Assembly: GCA_024278555.1 (NCBI GenBank)
Contig: JAJRSX010000193.1
Location: forward strand, 1-37,876
Length of the DNA stretch: 37,876 nucleotides
Direction of reading: 5' to 3'
DNA from: a bacterium
GTDB taxonomy: Bacteria > CG2-30-53-67 > CG2-30-70-394
Below are positions 5,670-37,876 of the stretch, in pieces. Each line of letters starts with the position of its first letter. Positions within the stretch are counted from its first letter, which is position 1. Both the position numbers and the translations under genes were made by a program. Below the pieces are notes generated by a model, which made no database searches, was not told the DNA's origin, and worked only from the letters and a program-made list of their open reading frames with translations.

Positions 5670-6157
5670 GGCGGGGCAGTTTGGCAAGCTCACCGTGAGA
5701 TGACGAGGGGGAGCCCGCGCCCCCAGAACCGTCGGTCCCATCTGCCCTCCGGACAAAACCACGCAGGGCACGAAGGGGAGCAGCGGCCGGATCAGCTCCG
5801 AGGAGGCCGATCAACCCCACCGCCGGCGGGGAAGACGGCCGGCAGGGAGGCGGATGAAAAGGGCCTTCAGTTCGCCCGCAGAGTCTGCTCGTCGAGGCAC
5901 GGTGTACGGGATGAGTGCGTGTTGCCATTGGAGTTCTCTGTCCTCTGTGTCTCTATGGTGAGCTCCGCCCCTCCCGGCCCTCACGGTGCCTTGGCGTACC
6001 GCCGGTTACGCCCGCCCCCGGTCCCCCACACCCCTCTGCGTCTCCCGCCCCTCCGCGCCTCTGCGTTAATAACTCCCACTCGGCACGACCCCCCGGCCCA
6101 CCACCATCGACGCCATCCCCCCCGCCCAGCCTCCCCCTCTCTACCTTCTACCTCCTC
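5670..6157. repeat. Repeat-filled spacer between kinase and regulator genes
   Basis: No gene is recognised in these 488 bp. Near 5751-5780 is ACCACGCAGGGCACGAAGGGG, a left arm of the CAC-type. At about 5934-5965 is the opposite arm, GGAGTTCTCTGTCCTCTGTG continuing TCTCTATGGTGA, almost identical to the right arm of the 185-bp element seen at 18770. Here the two arms do not match each other, so this looks like a decayed or recombined copy. A second CTCTGCG/CTCCGCG tract ending CTCTGCGTTAA lies near 6036-6068. The right end (about 6136-6160) is a TCTACCTTCTACCTCCTCCTAC heptamer-type tract that touches the kinase stop codon. Confidence 0.65.
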
Positions 6158-7864: not shown

Positions 7865-8316
7865 GGCACACTCCCCTCCACCGCCACCTCCACCGCCCCC
7901 GGGTGGGGAAGATCCACCGGCACATACCCGACGCTGCCCGCCACCCGGGCGACGAAGAGGGCGACGGCGCCATACGAGGCGAGCGCCCGGGGGGGGAAGC
8001 GGCCCTGGTAGTAGGCGCGCTGCCAGTGGTCGCGGACCGCATCGTCGCCCTCGGGAAAGAGCCAGCGGGCCACGGCCCGGCGCAGGGGCGAACGCGGCGG
8101 CCCGTTCACCGCCACCACCGCCCGGCCGCCCGGCCAGCGGGTGATGCGGCCGAGGTAGATGCGCCGCAGGGTGAGGGAGGTGATGCGCGCCGGCGCGTCA
8201 CCCGGATGGACGATCACCACAAAGGGACGCCCCGCCGCCGCCGGCGCCGCCTCCCCAAGGGGCGGCAAGAACACGGCGCAAAACGCCAGGAGGAGGAGGC
8301 CGGTAAGGCGTGCCAT
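7861..8316 (-). CDS. Short PstS-like periplasmic substrate-binding protein
   Basis: A secreted protein of 151 residues with a signal peptide (MARLTGLLLLAFCAVFLPPLGEA...). The mature part resembles the short proteins annotated as phosphate ABC transporter substrate-binding: TSLTLRRIYLGRITRWPGGR, then SPLRRAVARWLFP and GSVGYVPVDLP. It is much shorter than PstS (about 320 residues), and no transporter permease or ATPase gene is nearby. Its position between a porin and a sensor kinase, with a four-base overlap to the kinase, suggests a ligand-binding accessory to the sensor rather than a transport component. The ligand (phosphate or another oxyanion) is inferred from family only. No Shine-Dalgarno is visible before ATG 8316; the leader is a repeat element. 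Confidence 0.78.
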   Translation of the reverse strand: MARLTGLLLLAFCAVFLPPLGEAAPAAAGRPFVVIVHPGDAPARITSLTLRRIYLGRITRWPGGRAVVAVNGPPRSPLRRAVARWLFPEGDDAVRDHWQRAYYQGRFPPRALASYGAVALFVARVAGSVGYVPVDLPHPGAVEVAVEGSVP

Positions 8317-8326
8317 TAGAAGAGCT

Positions 8327-8492
8327 GCCTATCCCGTTAGCTCAGCAACACCGGGAGAATCTGGCAAAACAGGATCACGAAGACACGAAATCTTGAAAAC
8401 CACGAAAAAATTCCCTCAAGACTTTTCGTGTTTTCTTCCTTTCGTGTCTTCGTGTTCCCATTGGACCATCCACCTGAGCTAAGGGGATAGGC
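8327..8492. repeat. Nested inverted repeat inside the porin-sensor operon
   Basis: Outer arms are GCCTATCCCGTTAGCTCAG (8327-8345) and the reverse complement GCCTATCCCCTTAGCTCAG (8474-8492), with one mismatch in 19. Inside, 8372-8458 is a near-continuous hairpin: CACGAAGACACGAAA on the left pairs exactly with the right side, and further CACGAAAA blocks continue toward the centre. The arms follow the CAC-centred rhythm of the 185-bp element but with a different, AT-richer sequence. The element fills the gap between the porin stop and the binding-protein start. In RNA it would form a long stem able to stop, protect or cleave the operon transcript. Confidence 0.85.
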
Positions 8493-8495
8493 GTA

Positions 8496-9626
8496 TTAGA
8501 AGAAGGTCGCCACCGAGGCGAGGAAGGCGGCATCGGCGCCGTCGCGATCGCCCCCCCGGCGGAGTTGCACCTCGCCCTTGATCACCGTGGGGGGCAGGAG
8601 GTGCAGGGCCACCCCGGCGACGATGCGCCGCTCGGCGCGGCTCGCGCTGCGGTCGCGGAACCACTCGTAGCGGACCACCGGCGTGGCCCACCTCAGGGTC
8701 ACCGCACCCTGGAGGAAGCCACCCTCGCCGCTGCCCGCGCTGTCGACGCCGCGGGCACCGCTCACCACCCCCTCCCCCTTCACCTCGACCCGGCCGCACC
8801 GCCAGCGAAAGTCGACGCCGTAGTCGGTCTCGTGGGCGTCGTCGAACCGGTCGTCGGCGTCATCCAGCAACGACACGCCGATCCGCAGCGACGGCGTCGG
8901 CCGCACCGCCAGCCGTCCGCCGTACGCCTTCCGGTAGTTGGCGTCGTGGCGGTCCGGGTCGCGGCCGCGACCATTGGCGAGCCAGAGGCGGTAGTCCGCC
9001 TCCCAGCTCGCGTGAAAGAGGGTGCCGAGCATGAGCAGGCCGGTGGAGGCCTCCGGCACCACCTCCTCGACCACCAGGGGGCGCGAGGTGGTGAGCTGCA
9101 ACGGGTCGGCGTGGTTGACGATCCAGCTCCCGAAGGGGGTGAGGAACTTGCCGAAGCGAAGCTGCACCGCGTCGCTCGGGTGGTAATCGATGAGCGCCCG
9201 CTCGAGTCGCGCTCGGGCCACGTCCTCCGCCTCGCCGGTCGCCGGGTCGACCCTCCGCCGGTCGTGGAAGAACTCGAGCTCGCCGAAGACATTGAGCCGA
9301 TCGTTCAAGGGCGAGTTGAAGTAGAGGGAAAACTCCTCCTGGTCGAAGGTCGCCGGCGCCCCCTCATGGCGGGCGATCGCGGCGACCATGTACCCCTGGA
9401 GGCGGGTCGACGACCGGGGGGCGCCACCGCCCGCCTCCGACAGGGCAGCCTCGGGCGACGCCGCCTCCAGGCGCCGCTCCAGCTCATCGAGGCGCCTCTG
9501 CTGCTCCGCCACCGTGTGGCGCAGGGCGTCGACCTCCGTTGCCGCATCGGCGGCCGGAGCCGCCGCCGCCGGCAATGCGGTGACAAGGAGAACGAGGCAG
9601 ACCAGGGAGGAGAGCACGACGGCCAT
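8496..9626 (-). CDS. Outer-membrane porin with N-terminal coiled coil
   Basis: A 376-residue protein with a signal peptide (VLSSLVCLVLLVTALPAAAAP), a short coiled coil (about 32-55, VDALRHTVAEQQRRLDELER) and a long stretch of alternating amphipathic strands. The phrases FSLYFNSPLNDRLNVFGELE and LRFGKFLTPFGSWIVNHADP are typical of porins of the OprP/phosphate-selective or FmdC-like groups, and the chain ends SVATFF with the terminal Phe required for outer-membrane insertion. It is the first gene of the set porin, PstS-like protein, sensor kinase, NtrC regulator. This context supports uptake or sensing of a small anion, but the specificity is not visible in the sequence. Confidence 0.82.
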   Translation of the reverse strand: MAVVLSSLVCLVLLVTALPAAAAPAADAATEVDALRHTVAEQQRRLDELERRLEAASPEAALSEAGGGAPRSSTRLQGYMVAAIARHEGAPATFDQEEFSLYFNSPLNDRLNVFGELEFFHDRRRVDPATGEAEDVARARLERALIDYHPSDAVQLRFGKFLTPFGSWIVNHADPLQLTTSRPLVVEEVVPEASTGLLMLGTLFHASWEADYRLWLANGRGRDPDRHDANYRKAYGGRLAVRPTPSLRIGVSLLDDADDRFDDAHETDYGVDFRWRCGRVEVKGEGVVSGARGVDSAGSGEGGFLQGAVTLRWATPVVRYEWFRDRSASRAERRIVAGVALHLLPPTVIKGEVQLRRGGDRDGADAAFLASVATFF

Positions 9627-12780: not shown

Positions 12781-12791
12781 TCCGCCCCACA

Positions 12792-12883
12792 CGGTGCGCC
12801 GCGCTGCCCTTGGCACACCCTACGGATCCATCCCCCGATCTCCCCGTTGCCGTAGGGTGTGCCAAGCGAAGCGCGGCGCACCG
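12792..12883. repeat. REP pair (inverted) after mutM
   Basis: The right unit (12850-12883) reads CCGTAGGGTGTGCCAAGCGA and ends GCGGCGCACCG. It has GTAG before a hairpin GGTGTGCC/GGCGCACC. The left unit (12792-12825) is its near-perfect inverse (CGGTGCGCCGCGCT...GGCACACCCTACGG). Together they can fold into one large stem or two small ones and could end mutM transcription. Confidence 0.85.
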
Positions 12884-12894
12884 ACTGAGGAGAA

Positions 12895-18769: not shown

Positions 18770-18954
18770 AAGGGATTTTCACCACATAGACGCAGAGGGC
18801 ACAGAGAACTCCATCAGAAAACAACACGATTTTGCGCCGTCCTCTTGCACGACAACCCGGTGGCGATCCATTGCGAGGCCCAAGGGTGAGGAAAGCACCT
18901 CTCCTTTGCAGTTCTCTGTGCCCTCTGTGTCTCTGCGGTGAAATCGCCTTCCAG
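18770..18954 (+). repeat. 185-bp inverted-repeat element, copy A
   Basis: The left arm (TTCACCACATAGACGCAGAG, GGCACAGAGAACTCC) and right arm match at 31 of 35 positions by my count. Between them is a conserved core (ATCAGAAAACAACACGATTT ... GATCCATTGCGAGGC). Copies B (35893) and C (37693) share arms and core. No coding capacity was recognised; it looks like a non-autonomous mobile element or a structured RNA unit. Confidence 0.9.
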
Positions 18955-22559: not shown

Positions 22560-23041
22560 GGGCAGGCGGTCAAAGCGGCCTTTTTTTCGCTGCGCGAAAA
22601 AAAGGATATAGGGGGCAGGGGGGGGGGGGATGCCGAGAGGGCGGGGTTGCAATGGGGTGGCGGTGGTACGGCTCGGGATCGGCGTCGTGGGTGAAGGTGA
22701 TCGAGCTCACGAGGTGCTGGAAGCGAGGTCACCACGAAGACGCAAAGAACGCCAAGAGAGGCCGAGAAGGTGGTGCCGGCGATGCACCCTACGGGGGGCG
22801 ACGGCATCCCGCTCCCATTTCCCTTCATGACCTTCACGCTCTTCATGGTGAACCCCCTGCCAGGCACCTCCCCACCTCGGTCGCGCCTCGAATGCCGTCA
22901 TCGTTGAAGACCGCCACCTGCTGAAAGCTGAGGGCTGAATGCTGAACGCGCCGCACCGCCGCGGCTCCGAGTGGCCGCCCCCCTGCCCTCAAATTCTCTC
23001 TTAACGCGCAGCGAAAAAAGAGTTGCCTTGACCCCTCCCCC
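22560..23041. repeat. 482-bp composite element with 62-bp inverted ends
   Basis: The left end (22560-22621) and right end (22980-23041) match at 44 of 62 positions without gaps when one is inverted; shared words are GGTCAA, CTTTTTTCGCTGCGCG and GGGCAGGGG. The left end includes a hairpin CCTTTTTTTCGC/GCGAAAAAAAGG (22579-22605). Inside are a CAC-type element with a GTAG REP at its centre (22729-22853) and a one-sided GCTGANN array (22922-22948). It fills most of the divergent spacer between the TPR operon and the zapA operon (22536-23095); no gene is seen. Confidence 0.8.
22729..22853. repeat. CAC-type element with a central REP
   Basis: The left arm is TCACCACGAAGACGCAAAGA then ACGCCAAGAG. 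The right arm, inverted, reads TTCACCATGAAGAGCGTGAA then GGTCATGAAGGG, a looser match than in other copies. At 22772-22792 lies GGTGCCGGCGATGCACCCTAC, a REP hairpin followed by inverted GTAG. Sequence just left (CTGGAAGCGAGG) resembles the CCTGGAAGGCGATT flank of other copies. Confidence 0.68.
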
Positions 23042-23721: not shown

Positions 23722-23901
23722 GATGCCCTGCCTTACGCGTGATGGGAAGCTTTTCTCTGAACCAACACGATCTTCGAGGGATGACGGTCTAAAGACGGTG
23801 TGCATGCTCTCCCCGTCGAGAGAAGCCTAAAGCCTTAAGCCAACTCCCGACCTGTTCATGACAGGTTCAAGAAGACAACCCACACGGTAAGGCGGGGTCC
23901 C
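23722..23901 (+). ncRNA. ssrS: 6S RNA
   Basis: The region directly after zapA has the 6S plan. The closing stem is CCCTGCCTTAC (23726-23736) with GTAAGGCGGGG (23887-23897), one G-U pair. The conserved central words GTGTGCATGCTCTCCCCGTC and GAGAGAAGCCT (about 23800-23830) match the E. coli GGUGAGCAUGCUCGGUCCGUCCGAGAAGCCU segment. 6S RNA mimics an open promoter and holds sigma-70 RNA polymerase in stationary phase. Ends are estimated to within about ten bases. Confidence 0.9.
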
Positions 23902-23971
23902 CTTACTCGTCCGGCGGTTCGCTTGGCGCGGCCCGCGGGTGCATCCACGGAGGTAGCTACGCGGATGGCCT

Positions 23972-29164: not shown

Positions 29165-29376
29165 CTTACCACGGGGGACACGGGGGGGCGTGGGGGGCAA
29201 GTCACGGTTGCTGCCTATCGAGAGGTGTGGAGGCTTCCGCGGTCTCCGGACGACTGTTTGCAGTGATCGACAGGTCCATAGGTCTCGACCGGTAGGACCG
29301 CCCGTGCGGTGGTGGTGCGGAGGAGCCACCGGATGGCCCTTGCCCCTCACGCCCCCCCGTGTCCCCCGTGGTGAAC
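29165..29376. repeat. CAC-type inverted-repeat element with a GGGG arm
   Basis: Arms ACCACGGGGGACACGGGGGG, GCGTGGGGGGCAAG (left, to 29201) and its inverse (29339-29376) agree at 33 of 34 positions. A REP-like GTAGGACCGCCCGTGCGGT lies inside (29292-29310). It fills the gap between the converging mtnA and M48 genes and ends one base before the M48 stop codon. The same CAC rhythm as the 185-bp element is seen, with G replacing the A/G positions. Confidence 0.88.
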
Positions 29377-31736: not shown

Positions 31737-31886
31737 GGGCTCTCTCCCGTAGCTAGAGGGGGTATCTCGTGGCGGTGGCTCCCCTCGCCGCGCACGCCGA
31801 GAGGCCAGTGTAGGGAGCCCCCCCAAAGGCGACAAGACGAGGGGGAGGAAGATGATGGTCGGTTGGAAAGCTCGCGCGGAGACGCC

Positions 31887-31981
31887 AAGACCGTATGGCG
31901 CGGGACGCGCCACGCGGTCTTCTGGAGGACATCAGCCTCCAGCCACGGGGGGTGAAGCCAGCCGGACATGTGCCGGCTGGC
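31887..31981. other. Three consecutive perfect or near-perfect stem-loops
   Basis: SL1 31887-31921: AAGACCGTATGGCGCG, GGA, CGCGCCACGCGGTCTT (14 pairs with a 2-base internal loop). SL2 31922-31942: CTGGAGG, ACATCAG, CCTCCAG. SL3 31957-31981: GCCAGCCGG, ACATGTG, CCGGCTGGC. The closeness and order suggest a structured RNA, but strand, promoter and ends are unknown. Confidence 0.6.
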
Positions 31982-32080
31982 GAGGGGGGGCGCGTGGCGT
32001 CCCCCTCCACATCAGGCGTAGAGGGATGGCGGGCCAGGAGTCTGAACGTCACCGGCGCAGCCAACCCGCGCGCAACGGCC

Positions 32081-32131
32081 TGGAAGGCGATTGTTTAGCC
32101 ACGGAATCCACGGAAGGACACGGAAGGGGCG
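32081..32131. repeat. One-armed CAC-type repeat (CACGGAA)
   Basis: TGGAAGGCGATTGTTTAGCC continues ACGGAATCCACGGAAGGACA and CGGAAGG: three CACGGAA blocks nine bases apart. The CCTGGAAGGCGATT in front equals the outer flank of element A. A possible degraded partner (CTTTTCACCATGAAG) lies at 32202-32216. Confidence 0.65.
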
Positions 32132-32311
32132 AGAGCCCGCAGTGGGTGCGGCGCGAGTCGAGAGGGGTCCGGATGGGGCCTTACCGGTTTGGGAAAAAGC
32201 CTTTTCACCATGAAGACCCCATGGAGTGACCGGCTCCGTTTCGCAGGGTGGCATGCTCTTGAAGAAGAGGCCCATGAACCGCGGATTGGCGCCGGTCGGT
32301 GCCAGAACCGC

Positions 32312-32427
32312 ATGCGAAAGGAGCCGATCATAAAAACGGTGACGTACGTTGGATTGGATGTCCACAAGCGGTTTATTCAGGTGGCGATGTTGCGCCCGGG
32401 GTCGAACGTCTATGTGGAATGGCGGTC
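32312..32427 (+). pseudogene. IS110-family transposase, N-terminal fragment
   Basis: The frame from ATG 32312 reads MRKEPIIKTVTYVGLDVHKR then FIQVAMLRPGSNVYVEWR. GLDVHK is the opening DEDD-type RuvC-like motif of IS110 transposases, with Asp the first catalytic acid. Homology-like sequence stops near 32427, and the rest of the about 350-residue enzyme, including the C-terminal serine domain, is missing. It is a remnant, not a functional transposase. IS110 elements encode their bridge RNA in the non-coding end, for many members upstream of the gene, so the sequence before 32312 might retain part of it. Confidence 0.72.
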
Positions 32428-32709
32428 GTGGCCGAGCCTTGCCCCCGCCACCGCCCCATCGGCCCGAGCGCATCCAAGCGAAGCCGGATGGCTTCGCTTC
32501 GGAACGAAGCGCTGCCTTCACCGCCTGCTTCTCTCTTTCTGGAGAAACTCCCTTCCTAAGAAACTCCCTTCCTACTCCTCTCTCTCATCTCGTCCTCCCT
32601 AACCACCCACCGCTGCCGCCCTTGACGAGGGGTCACTCCATATCAGGTCATGAAGGGTCGGGATCACGACTCTTCGAGGAGCAGCGGAAATAATGTTCGG
32701 GCGGTTTGC

Positions 32710-33858
32710 CTACTCCGCCCGGTCTTCGTCGCCGCGGCCAAGGGTGAGGGTGGCGAGGGCGGCGGCCAGGGCAACGCCGCCGCTGAGGGCGAAGAGGAGG
32801 CGCGGGCCGAGGGGGTCGTAGAGGAGGCCGCTGGCGCCGTAGCCGATGACCATGCCGACCCCGAAGCTCGCCAGGGAGTAGAGCGACTGGCCCGAGGCCC
32901 GCAGGCCGGCGGGGAAGGCGTCGTGGGTGAAGTGGATGGCGGCGACGTGGAAGGTGCCGAAGGTGAAGGCGTGGAGCACCTGCGAGGCGGCGATCGCGTA
33001 GAGGTTGGTGGTCGTCGCCAGGACCCCCCAGCGCACCGCGGCGAGCCCCAACGACAGGGCCATCACCCGCCCCTCACCAAGCCGCGCCACCAGCCGGCTC
33101 GCCCCGGCCATCACCAGCAGCTCGGCCACCGTGGAGATCCCCCACAGCAGGCCGATAGTCCCCGGCTTCACCCTGATGGAGGCCATGTAGATGGAGAAGA
33201 AGCCGTAATAGGTGCCGTGCGACGCCTGCATCGCCACGCAGGCGGCGAGAAAGAGGACGAGGGCCGGCCGTTTGAGGACCGGCAGGAGCGCCGGCACCTG
33301 CTGGGGGAGGCCGCCGAGGCCGCGCGGCAGGGCCTCGACGGTGAGGGCGTTGGCCGCCGCCAACAGGGTCATCCCCGCCACCACGCTCACCATCGGCAGC
33401 CAGTTGAGCAGGTGGCCGAAGCCGACCGAGAGGCAGATGAAGCCGAGGGTCCCCCACATGCGCACCCGGCCGTAGTTCCAGCCGAAGTGGCCGACCCCCT
33501 CCAGGGTGACCGCCTCCACCAGCGGCAGGAGGGGGACCGAGACCACCGCGTAGGCCGCCATGCACAGGAGCAGCCCACCGAACCGGTGGGGTAGAAAGAG
33601 GGTGGCGGTGGTGGCCACCGACCCCCAGGCGGCGAGCCGCATCACCCCGCGCTGGCGATGGGTGCGATCCGCCCAGTGGGTGATCGGGAAGCTGAACAGG
33701 ACACGACCCACCGGCACCGCCATGGAGAGGGTGCCGATCTCCCAGGAGGAGAGGCCGAGAGACTTGCAGTAGAGGTTGAAGTACGGAAGAAAGACCCCCA
33801 GAACGGCGAAGTAGGCGAAGTAGAAGGCGCCGAAGCGCAGGGGGTGGGCTCGCTCCAT
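32710..33858 (-). CDS. MFS transporter, 3-phenylpropionate permease (HcaT/PPP) type
   Basis: A 382-residue protein with twelve predicted helices. The opening FGAFYFAYFAVLGVFLPYFN followed by LYCKSLGLSSWEIGTLSMAV matches the MFS_1-like group that includes HcaT, and the loop WADRTHRQRG takes the place of the usual MFS loop. The substrate is unknown; the HcaT name reflects sequence class, not proven function. It follows trpD by 89 bp on the same strand, so it may be read through from trpGD, but no functional link is evident. The end (DEDRAE, TAG) borders the repeat-rich spacer. Confidence 0.86.
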   Translation of the reverse strand: MERAHPLRFGAFYFAYFAVLGVFLPYFNLYCKSLGLSSWEIGTLSMAVPVGRVLFSFPITHWADRTHRQRGVMRLAAWGSVATTATLFLPHRFGGLLLCMAAYAVVSVPLLPLVEAVTLEGVGHFGWNYGRVRMWGTLGFICLSVGFGHLLNWLPMVSVVAGMTLLAAANALTVEALPRGLGGLPQQVPALLPVLKRPALVLFLAACVAMQASHGTYYGFFSIYMASIRVKPGTIGLLWGISTVAELLVMAGASRLVARLGEGRVMALSLGLAAVRWGVLATTTNLYAIAASQVLHAFTFGTFHVAAIHFTHDAFPAGLRASGQSLYSLASFGVGMVIGYGASGLLYDPLGPRLLFALSGGVALAAALATLTLGRGDEDRAE

Positions 33859-35571: not shown

Positions 35572-36146
35572 CGTCGGTCCATCCGTCGAGGGCGGAGCGC
35601 GCTCCGCCGAAGATCCAACAAGCCATCTCACCTCTCGCCCACCGCGCGAGCACGACGCAGGGTGAGCGACCGCCGCCACCGGGGACAAGCCCCCGGAATC
35701 GTCGGCTCCAGCTGCTGTCCTCCAGACAAAACCCCTTCCCCCGGATAAAACCACGAAGGACACCCCGTTCACCGGCGCGCCCGCCTGCCTCGGAGGAGCC
35801 CCCCCCCACCCGGTGATCCGTCTCCTCACCCTTCCTGGCCCACGCGGTGTGCCGTTCATCCTTTGGAAACAAGCCGTTTCCAGAGCGCTCCCGGAAGGGA
35901 TTTTTCACTACAGAGACACAGAGAGCACAGAGAACTCCAAAGGAAAGGTGCTTTCCTCCTCTCAGGCCTCGCAATGGATCGCCACGGGGTTGCCGTGCAG
36001 GAGGACGGCGCAAAATCGTGTTGTTTTCTGATGGCGTTCTCTGTGCCCTCTGTGTCTCTGTAGTGAAATTTCCTTCCAGGCTGCTGCATAGCGATTGGGG
36101 GCACCGGTGACACATCACCCTCCCTGCCGACGATCCGTGCCTCCCC
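35572..36146. other. Repeat-rich spacer upstream of trpG
   Basis: No gene is recognised in this 575-bp gap between trpG and the cutA remnant. Near 35743-35768 is a one-sided CAC-type arm (AAAACCACGAAGGACACC) in a context (CAGACAAAACC) similar to 5750-5775. Copy B of the 185-bp element occupies 35893-36077. The trpG promoter should lie in the remaining 35572-35890, but I see no clear hexamers. Confidence 0.6.
35893..36077 (-). repeat. 185-bp inverted-repeat element, copy B (opposite orientation)
   Basis: Arms TTTCACTACAGAGACACAGA, GAGCACAGAGAAC and their inverse agree at 32 of 33 positions. The core is the reverse complement of copy A (CAAAATCGTGTTGTTTTCTG here). Outer flanks GGAAGGGATTT and AAATTTCCTTCC extend the inverted repeat to about 45 bp. 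The length equals copy A exactly. Confidence 0.92.
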
Positions 36147-37692: not shown

Positions 37693-37876
37693 ATGGGGTT
37701 CACCGCAGAGACGCGAAGGACGCAGAGAACTCCATCAGAAAACAGCGCGATCTTGCGCCGCCCTCTCGCGCGGCAACCCCGTGACGATCCATTGCGAGGC
37801 CCAAGAGGAGGAACGGACCTCTCCTTTGCAGTTCTCTGTGTCCTCTGTGCTCTCCTTTGCTTGTGGGCTCCGAGCC
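37693..37876 (+). repeat. 185-bp inverted-repeat element, copy C (at window edge)
   Basis: Same orientation as copy A. The left arm reads TTCACCGCAGAGACGCGAAG, GACGCAGAGAACTCC; the core has ATCAGAAAACAGCGCGATCT and GATCCATTGCGAGGCCCAAG; the right arm GTTCTCTGTGTCCTCTGTG degrades after about 37850. It abuts the upstream region of the CPBP-type gene, 83 bp from its start. Confidence 0.88.

Follow-up and report, generated by a model that had tools for sequence, protein, structure and literature searches.

What keeps the two arms of an intergenic hairpin almost identical, when hairpins of the same kind elsewhere in the genome carry a different sequence? The question is raised by an element at 29165-29376 of the window, the 37,876-nt stretch of bacterial DNA that was analysed here. 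Its arms contain CAC blocks placed at regular intervals, and several further elements of the window follow the same rhythm. An earlier, sequence-only reading had attributed the agreement between arms to selection for pairing, or to copying of one arm onto the other, and had suggested that spaced CAC blocks might also be recognized as such. We propose instead, with a probability of roughly 0.6, that the CAC elements of the window are gene-less members of a mobile hairpin superfamily, whose gene-bearing members are cassettes of the GxxExxY gene; the whole would resemble the REPIN-RAYT system, with an unrelated nuclease as its enzyme.

CAC elements of the window and its genome

The arms of the element at 29165-29376 are 97% complementary over 34 nt and are separated by 137 nt, confirming the near-perfect agreement that had been read from the sequence. 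The predicted fold is far more stable than those of shuffled sequences, with z-scores of -9.1 as DNA and -9.8 as RNA. The other elements named at the outset are listed in Table 1: those at 8372, 18770 and 35893 are genuine inverted arm pairs, and that at 37693 is a degraded relative. Two more loci, 22729 and 32098, had been described as further variants; both do contain CAC blocks, but the arms of the first are poorly matched and the second is a single block without a partner. The solo arm at 6034-6069 is a gene-less match to the arms of a GxxExxY copy on contig C22 of the genome (see below).

Table 1. CAC-type elements and arms of the window, with the MITE that hosts one of them
Feature	Position	Strand	Description
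Two solo arms	5929-6069	-	CATAGAG/CACAGAG type (5929-5961); CGCAGAG..GGCGGGAGACGCAGAG type (6034-6069)
Host MITE	8327-8492	.	TIR GCCTATCCC[CG]TTAGCTCA; 9-bp target duplication ATTAGAAGA (8315-8323 / 8495-8503)
CACGAAG-type hairpin	8372-8458	.	arms 8372-8390/8440-8458; inside the TIR-bounded MITE 8327-8492
CACAGAG-type hairpin element	18770-18950	.	arms 18777-18810 / 18910-18943; core common to 35891-36080; absent in sister species G001
CACGAAG/CATGAAG blocks, weak member	22733-22847	.	blocks on both strands; arms poorly matched
CACGGGG-type hairpin element (reported finding)	29165-29376	.	between two convergent genes; 33/34 arm complementarity; syntenic site in sister species G001 without element
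Left arm of the 29165-29376 element, ACCACGGGGGACACGGGGGGGCGTGGGGGGCAAG	29168-29201	+	one of 41 genome-wide CACGGGG arms (reversed control 0)
Right arm of the 29165-29376 element	29339-29372	-	inverted copy of the left arm, one mismatch
CACGGAA-type single arm, weak member	32098-32130	+	partner searched, none found
CACAGAG-type hairpin element	35891-36080	.	arms 35903-35939 / 36032-36068; orthologous intergenic site empty in G001
Degraded CACAGAG/CGCAGAG-type element	37699-37855	.	core as in the 18770 element (157-bp match to it); absent in G001

The genome of the window (G000; 3.06 Mb in 211 contigs), whose elements were compared from sampled loci, is rich in such arms. The pattern CACRGAG-n-CACRGAG occurs 50 times and its reversed form 0 times; the CACGGGG arm CCACGGGGGACACGGGG, with at most one mismatch, occurs 41 times, also against 0 for the reversed control, and the CAC arm pattern is therefore not a product of chance. 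A wider arm pattern gave 126 occurrences against 0 in its control. About nine of the CACGGGG loci that were read are paired, most of them with diverged inner arms, and most of the others are solo; the reported element is the only one among them with near-perfect arms.

GxxExxY cassettes and their unit code

Arms of the same kind as those of the window hairpins border GxxExxY genes (TIGR04256/PF13366) in many phyla. All four GxxExxY loci of G000 have CAC arms adjoining the gene. In three of them the arms form a bracketing inverted pair, near-perfect in two (31/31 and 38/39) and matching at 23/25 on contig C116, where the arms also share a match of 27-30 nt with CACAGAG hairpin arms; the fourth locus has one gene-less hairpin on each side. 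In the copy at L034 (1400-1743, contig C22) the match to GxxExxY is split in two, as a frame break would cause, and the arms nonetheless agree at 38 of 39 positions.

The arrangement is general. A matched inverted arm pair (score of at least 13) was found at 74% of 81 GxxExxY loci, as compared with 0.8% when the flanks were shifted by 600 or 1200 bp and 20% when arms were swapped between loci. This set consists of one viral contig and the 80 genome-contig loci closest to the query, which span Planctomycetota, Chloroflexota, Verrucomicrobiota, Acidobacteriota, Pseudomonadota, Armatimonadota, a cyanobacterium and an archaeon. With further genome-search matches added (186 loci) the proportion is 75%, about a quarter of the genes having no clear arm pair. 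GxxExxY was found in 89 of 386 sampled genomes, in up to about 11 copies per genome. At least six CAC arms are present in 48 of these 89 genomes and in 14 of the 297 that are negative for the gene (odds ratio 24, p=3e-24, in a Fisher test on raw genome counts that ignores phylogeny); in the 14, which include G005, G279 and G251, the arms are often solo. At the search sensitivity used, a relative was found in 0 of 50,697 phage records and in 8 of 72,556 plasmid records, and IMG/VR yielded one contig.

The protein is a stand-alone domain of ~125 residues, for which the AF2 model is confident (pLDDT 95). Among 70 sequences, D69 and K81 are conserved in at least 90%, while E79, Q93 and Y97 are invariant (D ... 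E79-x-K81 ... Q93-xxx-Y97). The combination of D, ExK and QxxxY is the motif set of the RecB/Cas4/lambda-exonuclease branch. The only near-invariant cysteine is C35, and the four-cysteine Fe-S cluster of Cas4 proper is absent. The nearest solved folds are lambda/LHK exonuclease and SSO0001, with a probability of about 0.9-1.0, a TM score of about 0.5 and a weak Foldseek E-value of about 0.005 or more; the best PADLOC match, also weak, is Cas4, and a sequence search for a solved relative found none. GxxExxY is a predicted RecB/Cas4-like PD-(D/E)XK nuclease, and it is under purifying selection, with dN/dS of 0.06-0.21 in pairs with measurable dS. In the open-access literature searched, two papers mention GxxExxY in passing, one mentions PF13366, and the repeat strings were not found.

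Each arm is composed of about three tandem, heptamer-like units of 7 nt (consensus CRCNRAG/T), inverted on the other side of the gene, and usually opens with TTTCACC or AACC. The CAC rhythm noted in the window is kept, the spacing of units in gene-bearing elements being almost always 8-10 bp. Equal spacing in the two arms (72/72) was left out of the evidence, because arms were defined by ungapped alignment. Among the units of gene-bearing copies are CGCAGAG, CACAGAG, CACGGAG, CACAAAG, CACGAAG, CGCCGATGAA, CACGGATTT, CGCAGATTT and CACTGAA; rarer ones, such as ACGAATTTA, ACAGGATTA and AACCGAG, fall outside the formula.

The unit varies from element to element (CACAGAG, CGCCGAT, CACGGGG, CACGGAT and others), yet agrees across the ~6 copies within each, even among elements of one genome. 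Coherence within an element is 0.97-0.98 at three unit positions, compared with 0.69-0.78 expected from shuffled units. In 23 genomes or records with several GxxExxY copies, a copy's own left and right arms score at least 15 in 59% of cases (n=88), but a left arm paired with the right arm of another copy of the same genome does so in only 4.3% (n=302), which excludes genome-wide composition as the cause of the match. In one set of aligned neighbourhoods, every unit of L067 reads CAC, and every unit of L070, L080 and L116 reads CGC instead, so that all units changed together.

The code is also coupled to the nuclease lineage. When mapped onto a 110-domain GxxExxY tree, the last base of the unit needs 7 changes, as against 24.3+-1.3 for shuffled labels; with labels permuted within genomes, 3 of 500 permutations were as low. 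The second and fifth unit positions carry signal on this tree as well. The unit CGCCGAT, read from the cassettes of G031, G180, G317 and G213, was then sought in all 386 genomes. These four gave 22, 11, 41 and 8 matches, respectively; among the other 382 only G324 gave more than one (8 matches), and its GxxExxY has CGCAGAT arms. Since G031, G180 and G317 are of one family, there are fewer than five independent cases. The type of unit goes with nuclease phylogeny, and reading the unit from gene-bearing copies singled out the correct genomes of the 386. That spaced CAC blocks are recognised, the second suggestion made for the window, is well supported by the arms that flank GxxExxY across phyla, by unit coherence within elements and by the way the unit tracks nuclease phylogeny.

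Mobility of the hairpins and competing explanations

The sister species G001 is syntenic with the window at 77-85% identity and is empty at the sites of 18770, 29165, 35891 and 37699. The reported element has a sharp right end (...CCGTGGTGAA|CCCTACGGTGCGATCACC, compared with GCCCTG|CCCTACGGTGCGATCACC in G001). Within G000, an empty MITE copy (L390, 289 bp) can be set against two that bear a hairpin (L379 and L388, 422-423 bp): GGCC-ATTTC-CCC in the former corresponds to GGCC-ATTTC-ACCACGGAG...CTCCGTGGTGA-ATTTC-CCC in the latter. The difference is an insertion of ~129 bp with a direct repeat of 3-5 bp (ATTTC), or its precise reversal by excision. A clean target duplication of the hairpin was seen at this one family of sites; a scan over all CACAGAG copies found none of at least 4 bp, as their flanking sequence is itself repetitive. 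In several lineages of Betaproteobacteria (L111, L132, L114, L115, L142), a GxxExxY cassette occupies the junction of the genes that we take, from their sequences, to be trpE and trpG; it is missing there in an Azonexus MAG (L143). At the presumed trpD-trpC junction, one genome has a gene-less hairpin where the other has a GxxExxY cassette. Judged by the filled and empty MITE copies and by the orthologous sites in G001, the gene-less hairpins are mobile.

The hairpins could instead be carried, or produced, by other mobile machinery, such as a MITE transposase or a RAYT, with GxxExxY as mere cargo; we consider this improbable, if worth keeping in mind. At least eight G000 copies are carried in a MITE that has TIR GCCTATCCCCTTAGCTCA and a target duplication of ~9 bp. 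The repeat surrounding the hairpin (GCCTATCCCC) looks like a MITE; 28 MITE TIRs are present in the genome, and three hairpin types (CACAGAG, CACGAAG and CACGGGG) are found inside MITE copies. The MITE does amplify part of the G000 hairpin copies. However, the hairpin also moves by itself, since copies exist outside the MITE (those at 35891 and 37699 have no TIR) and the MITE copy that lacks a hairpin indicates that the hairpin was inserted separately. Searches for the MITE's own transposase, and for a parental DDE transposase of the hairpin, found neither. RAYT genes are present too, and RAYT was considered as a partner at 18 PF01797 loci from 10 genomes. It was rejected: the distribution of PF01797 is not that of the arms, many genomes with PF01797 being arm-free, and the four RAYT loci of G000 yielded no pair of inverted CAC repeats. 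The only RAYT (Y1_Tnp) locus with detectable hairpins, L190, has a family of its own, GGGGACAGGACCC; its hairpins, GAAAAGGGGACAGGACCCTTTT, lie at 469-523 and 1259-1316. In one of the MITE-borne copies (L377/L378, contig C4) the hairpin loop contains an IS1380-family transposase gene; the IS1380 was inserted later, and was discarded as a mobiliser.

That the arms are operators or other regulatory sites, bound by GxxExxY or a host factor for autoregulation or as a roadblock, with gene-less copies as a dispersed regulon and mobility coming from elsewhere, seems distinctly unlikely. Such a role would suit the position of the arms, which flank the gene at short distance and often overlap its 5' reading frame, and the retention of the trpE-trpG copy at one site across deep divergence. 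It fits poorly with the symmetry of the arms about the gene, with gain and loss at orthologous sites, with the filled and empty MITE copies and their direct repeat, and with codes that are specific to each element of one genome.

The explanation first put forward for the window, continuing pairing selection or arm-to-arm copying, was not borne out. Among 25 gene-less elements of G000, arm identity is 0.85 within an element and 0.66 between elements, a result reached in 0 of 20,000 permutations. The covariation that this explanation predicts is present when subfamilies are compared, and also among the elements of a single genome, but it is not significant within the young CACAGAG subfamily: in 15 elements of this type the same-element excess is small (0.893 vs 0.880, p=0.075), and changes confined to one arm occupy 48 cells, as against 7 for changes in both (p=0.076). 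In genome G005, solo head-to-tail arms show unit coherence without any inverted partner. The G005 loci L146-L159 are arrays of same-strand solo arms ~60 bp apart, each with its own coherent unit, and GxxExxY was not detected in that genome. It is very unlikely that the arms are held identical by base-pairing selection, whether on RNA or on DNA, or by gene conversion from one arm to the other, in spite of the strong predicted hairpin and the arm agreement between subfamilies, because young subfamilies show no significant covariation and many one-arm changes, CACGGGG arms are diverged or frequently solo, and single arms are coherent by themselves. The arms look as though they were set at the founding of a subfamily, with no need for ongoing pairing selection or copying; recognition by a cognate factor, fixed per subfamily, fits better than either.

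A proposed mechanism and its relation to known systems

The gene-bearing cassette of the GxxExxY superfamily consists of a single GxxExxY gene bracketed by a pair of inverted arms, and the unit sequence, identical in both arms and in every unit, is the element's own code. In the mechanism that we consider most likely, the cognate PD-(D/E)XK nuclease would recognise or process these arrays of units, or a hairpin or cruciform that they form, at the ends of its own cassette, and the same nuclease would act in trans on gene-less hairpins. With the help of host replication and repair, the elements would thereby reach new intergenic positions, where a short target sequence would be duplicated. We infer, in other words, that GxxExxY binds and cuts the arms and drives their mobility. 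The arms would match because both must be read by one specificity; a shift in specificity would shift all units and found a new subfamily, the old gene-less copies being left to drift.

On balance, we lean towards a wider proposal, that these elements form a bacteria-wide class of mobile element whose arms both carry a tandem-heptamer code, specific to the element and read by a stand-alone Cas4/RecB-like nuclease. Specificity and arms would co-diverge, giving many orthogonal elements per genome, and the class would explain many of the unnamed repeats of CACAGAG, CACGGAT, ACGAAT and ACAGGAT type found between genes in environmental genomes. Hairpins of this kind are very widespread and apparently undescribed.

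The closest parallel is the REPIN/RAYT system, in which inverted hairpin doublets, dispersed extragenic gene-less copies and repeats that flank an enzyme gene occur together, each enzyme lineage having its own repeat type (PMC3116915). GxxExxY arms likewise flank an enzyme gene and recur as extragenic inverted doublets, and each GxxExxY lineage has its own repeat type. In contrast to REPIN/RAYT, the enzyme is a predicted PD-(D/E)XK nuclease and not an HUH Y1 transposase (PF01797), each arm holds three tandem heptamer-like units in place of a single palindrome, and the gene itself is multicopy, at up to about 11 per genome. With MITEs and insertion sequences the hairpins have in common gene-less inverted-repeat units, an apparent target duplication and gain or loss at orthologous sites; they differ in having no DDE or HUH transposase relative, in a terminal sequence that varies among copies of one genome, and in a direct repeat of 3-5 bp only. 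The protein keeps the motifs of the RecB/Cas4/lambda-exonuclease branch, where its nearest, weakly matched folds also lie, but is a 125-residue stand-alone domain with no conserved four-cysteine cluster and no CRISPR link in the loci read. As in homing endonucleases, a small nuclease gene forms a selfish cassette at intergenic sites; unlike them, the cassettes are bounded by inverted unit arrays, have gene-less derivatives, are not found in introns or inteins, and are nearly absent from phages and plasmids. The Geobacter multicopy class 4 sites were also considered and set aside, their consensus (CCYTC) being different.

If the proposal is true, it would give a role to the very common GxxExxY family, bring under one explanation some of the unnamed intergenic repeats most often met in environmental bacteria, and add a class of nuclease to the known drivers of miniature mobile DNA. 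Since nuclease and unit sequence vary together, it may be possible to read a natural code of protein-DNA recognition directly from the genome sequences of these elements.

Several other features of the window were observed. An Rfam scan returned a 6S RNA at 23722-23902 (94.6 bits) and nothing else. A further inverted repeat at 12785-12890 (CGGTGCGCCGCGCT..CACACCCTACGG) belongs to a family distinct from the CAC elements. Within 31840-32730, ~790 bp are missing from the sister species G001, and a short frame in this region resembles, by eye, the start of an IS110-type transposase. Finally, the 35891-36080 element sits just upstream of a trpG-like gene.
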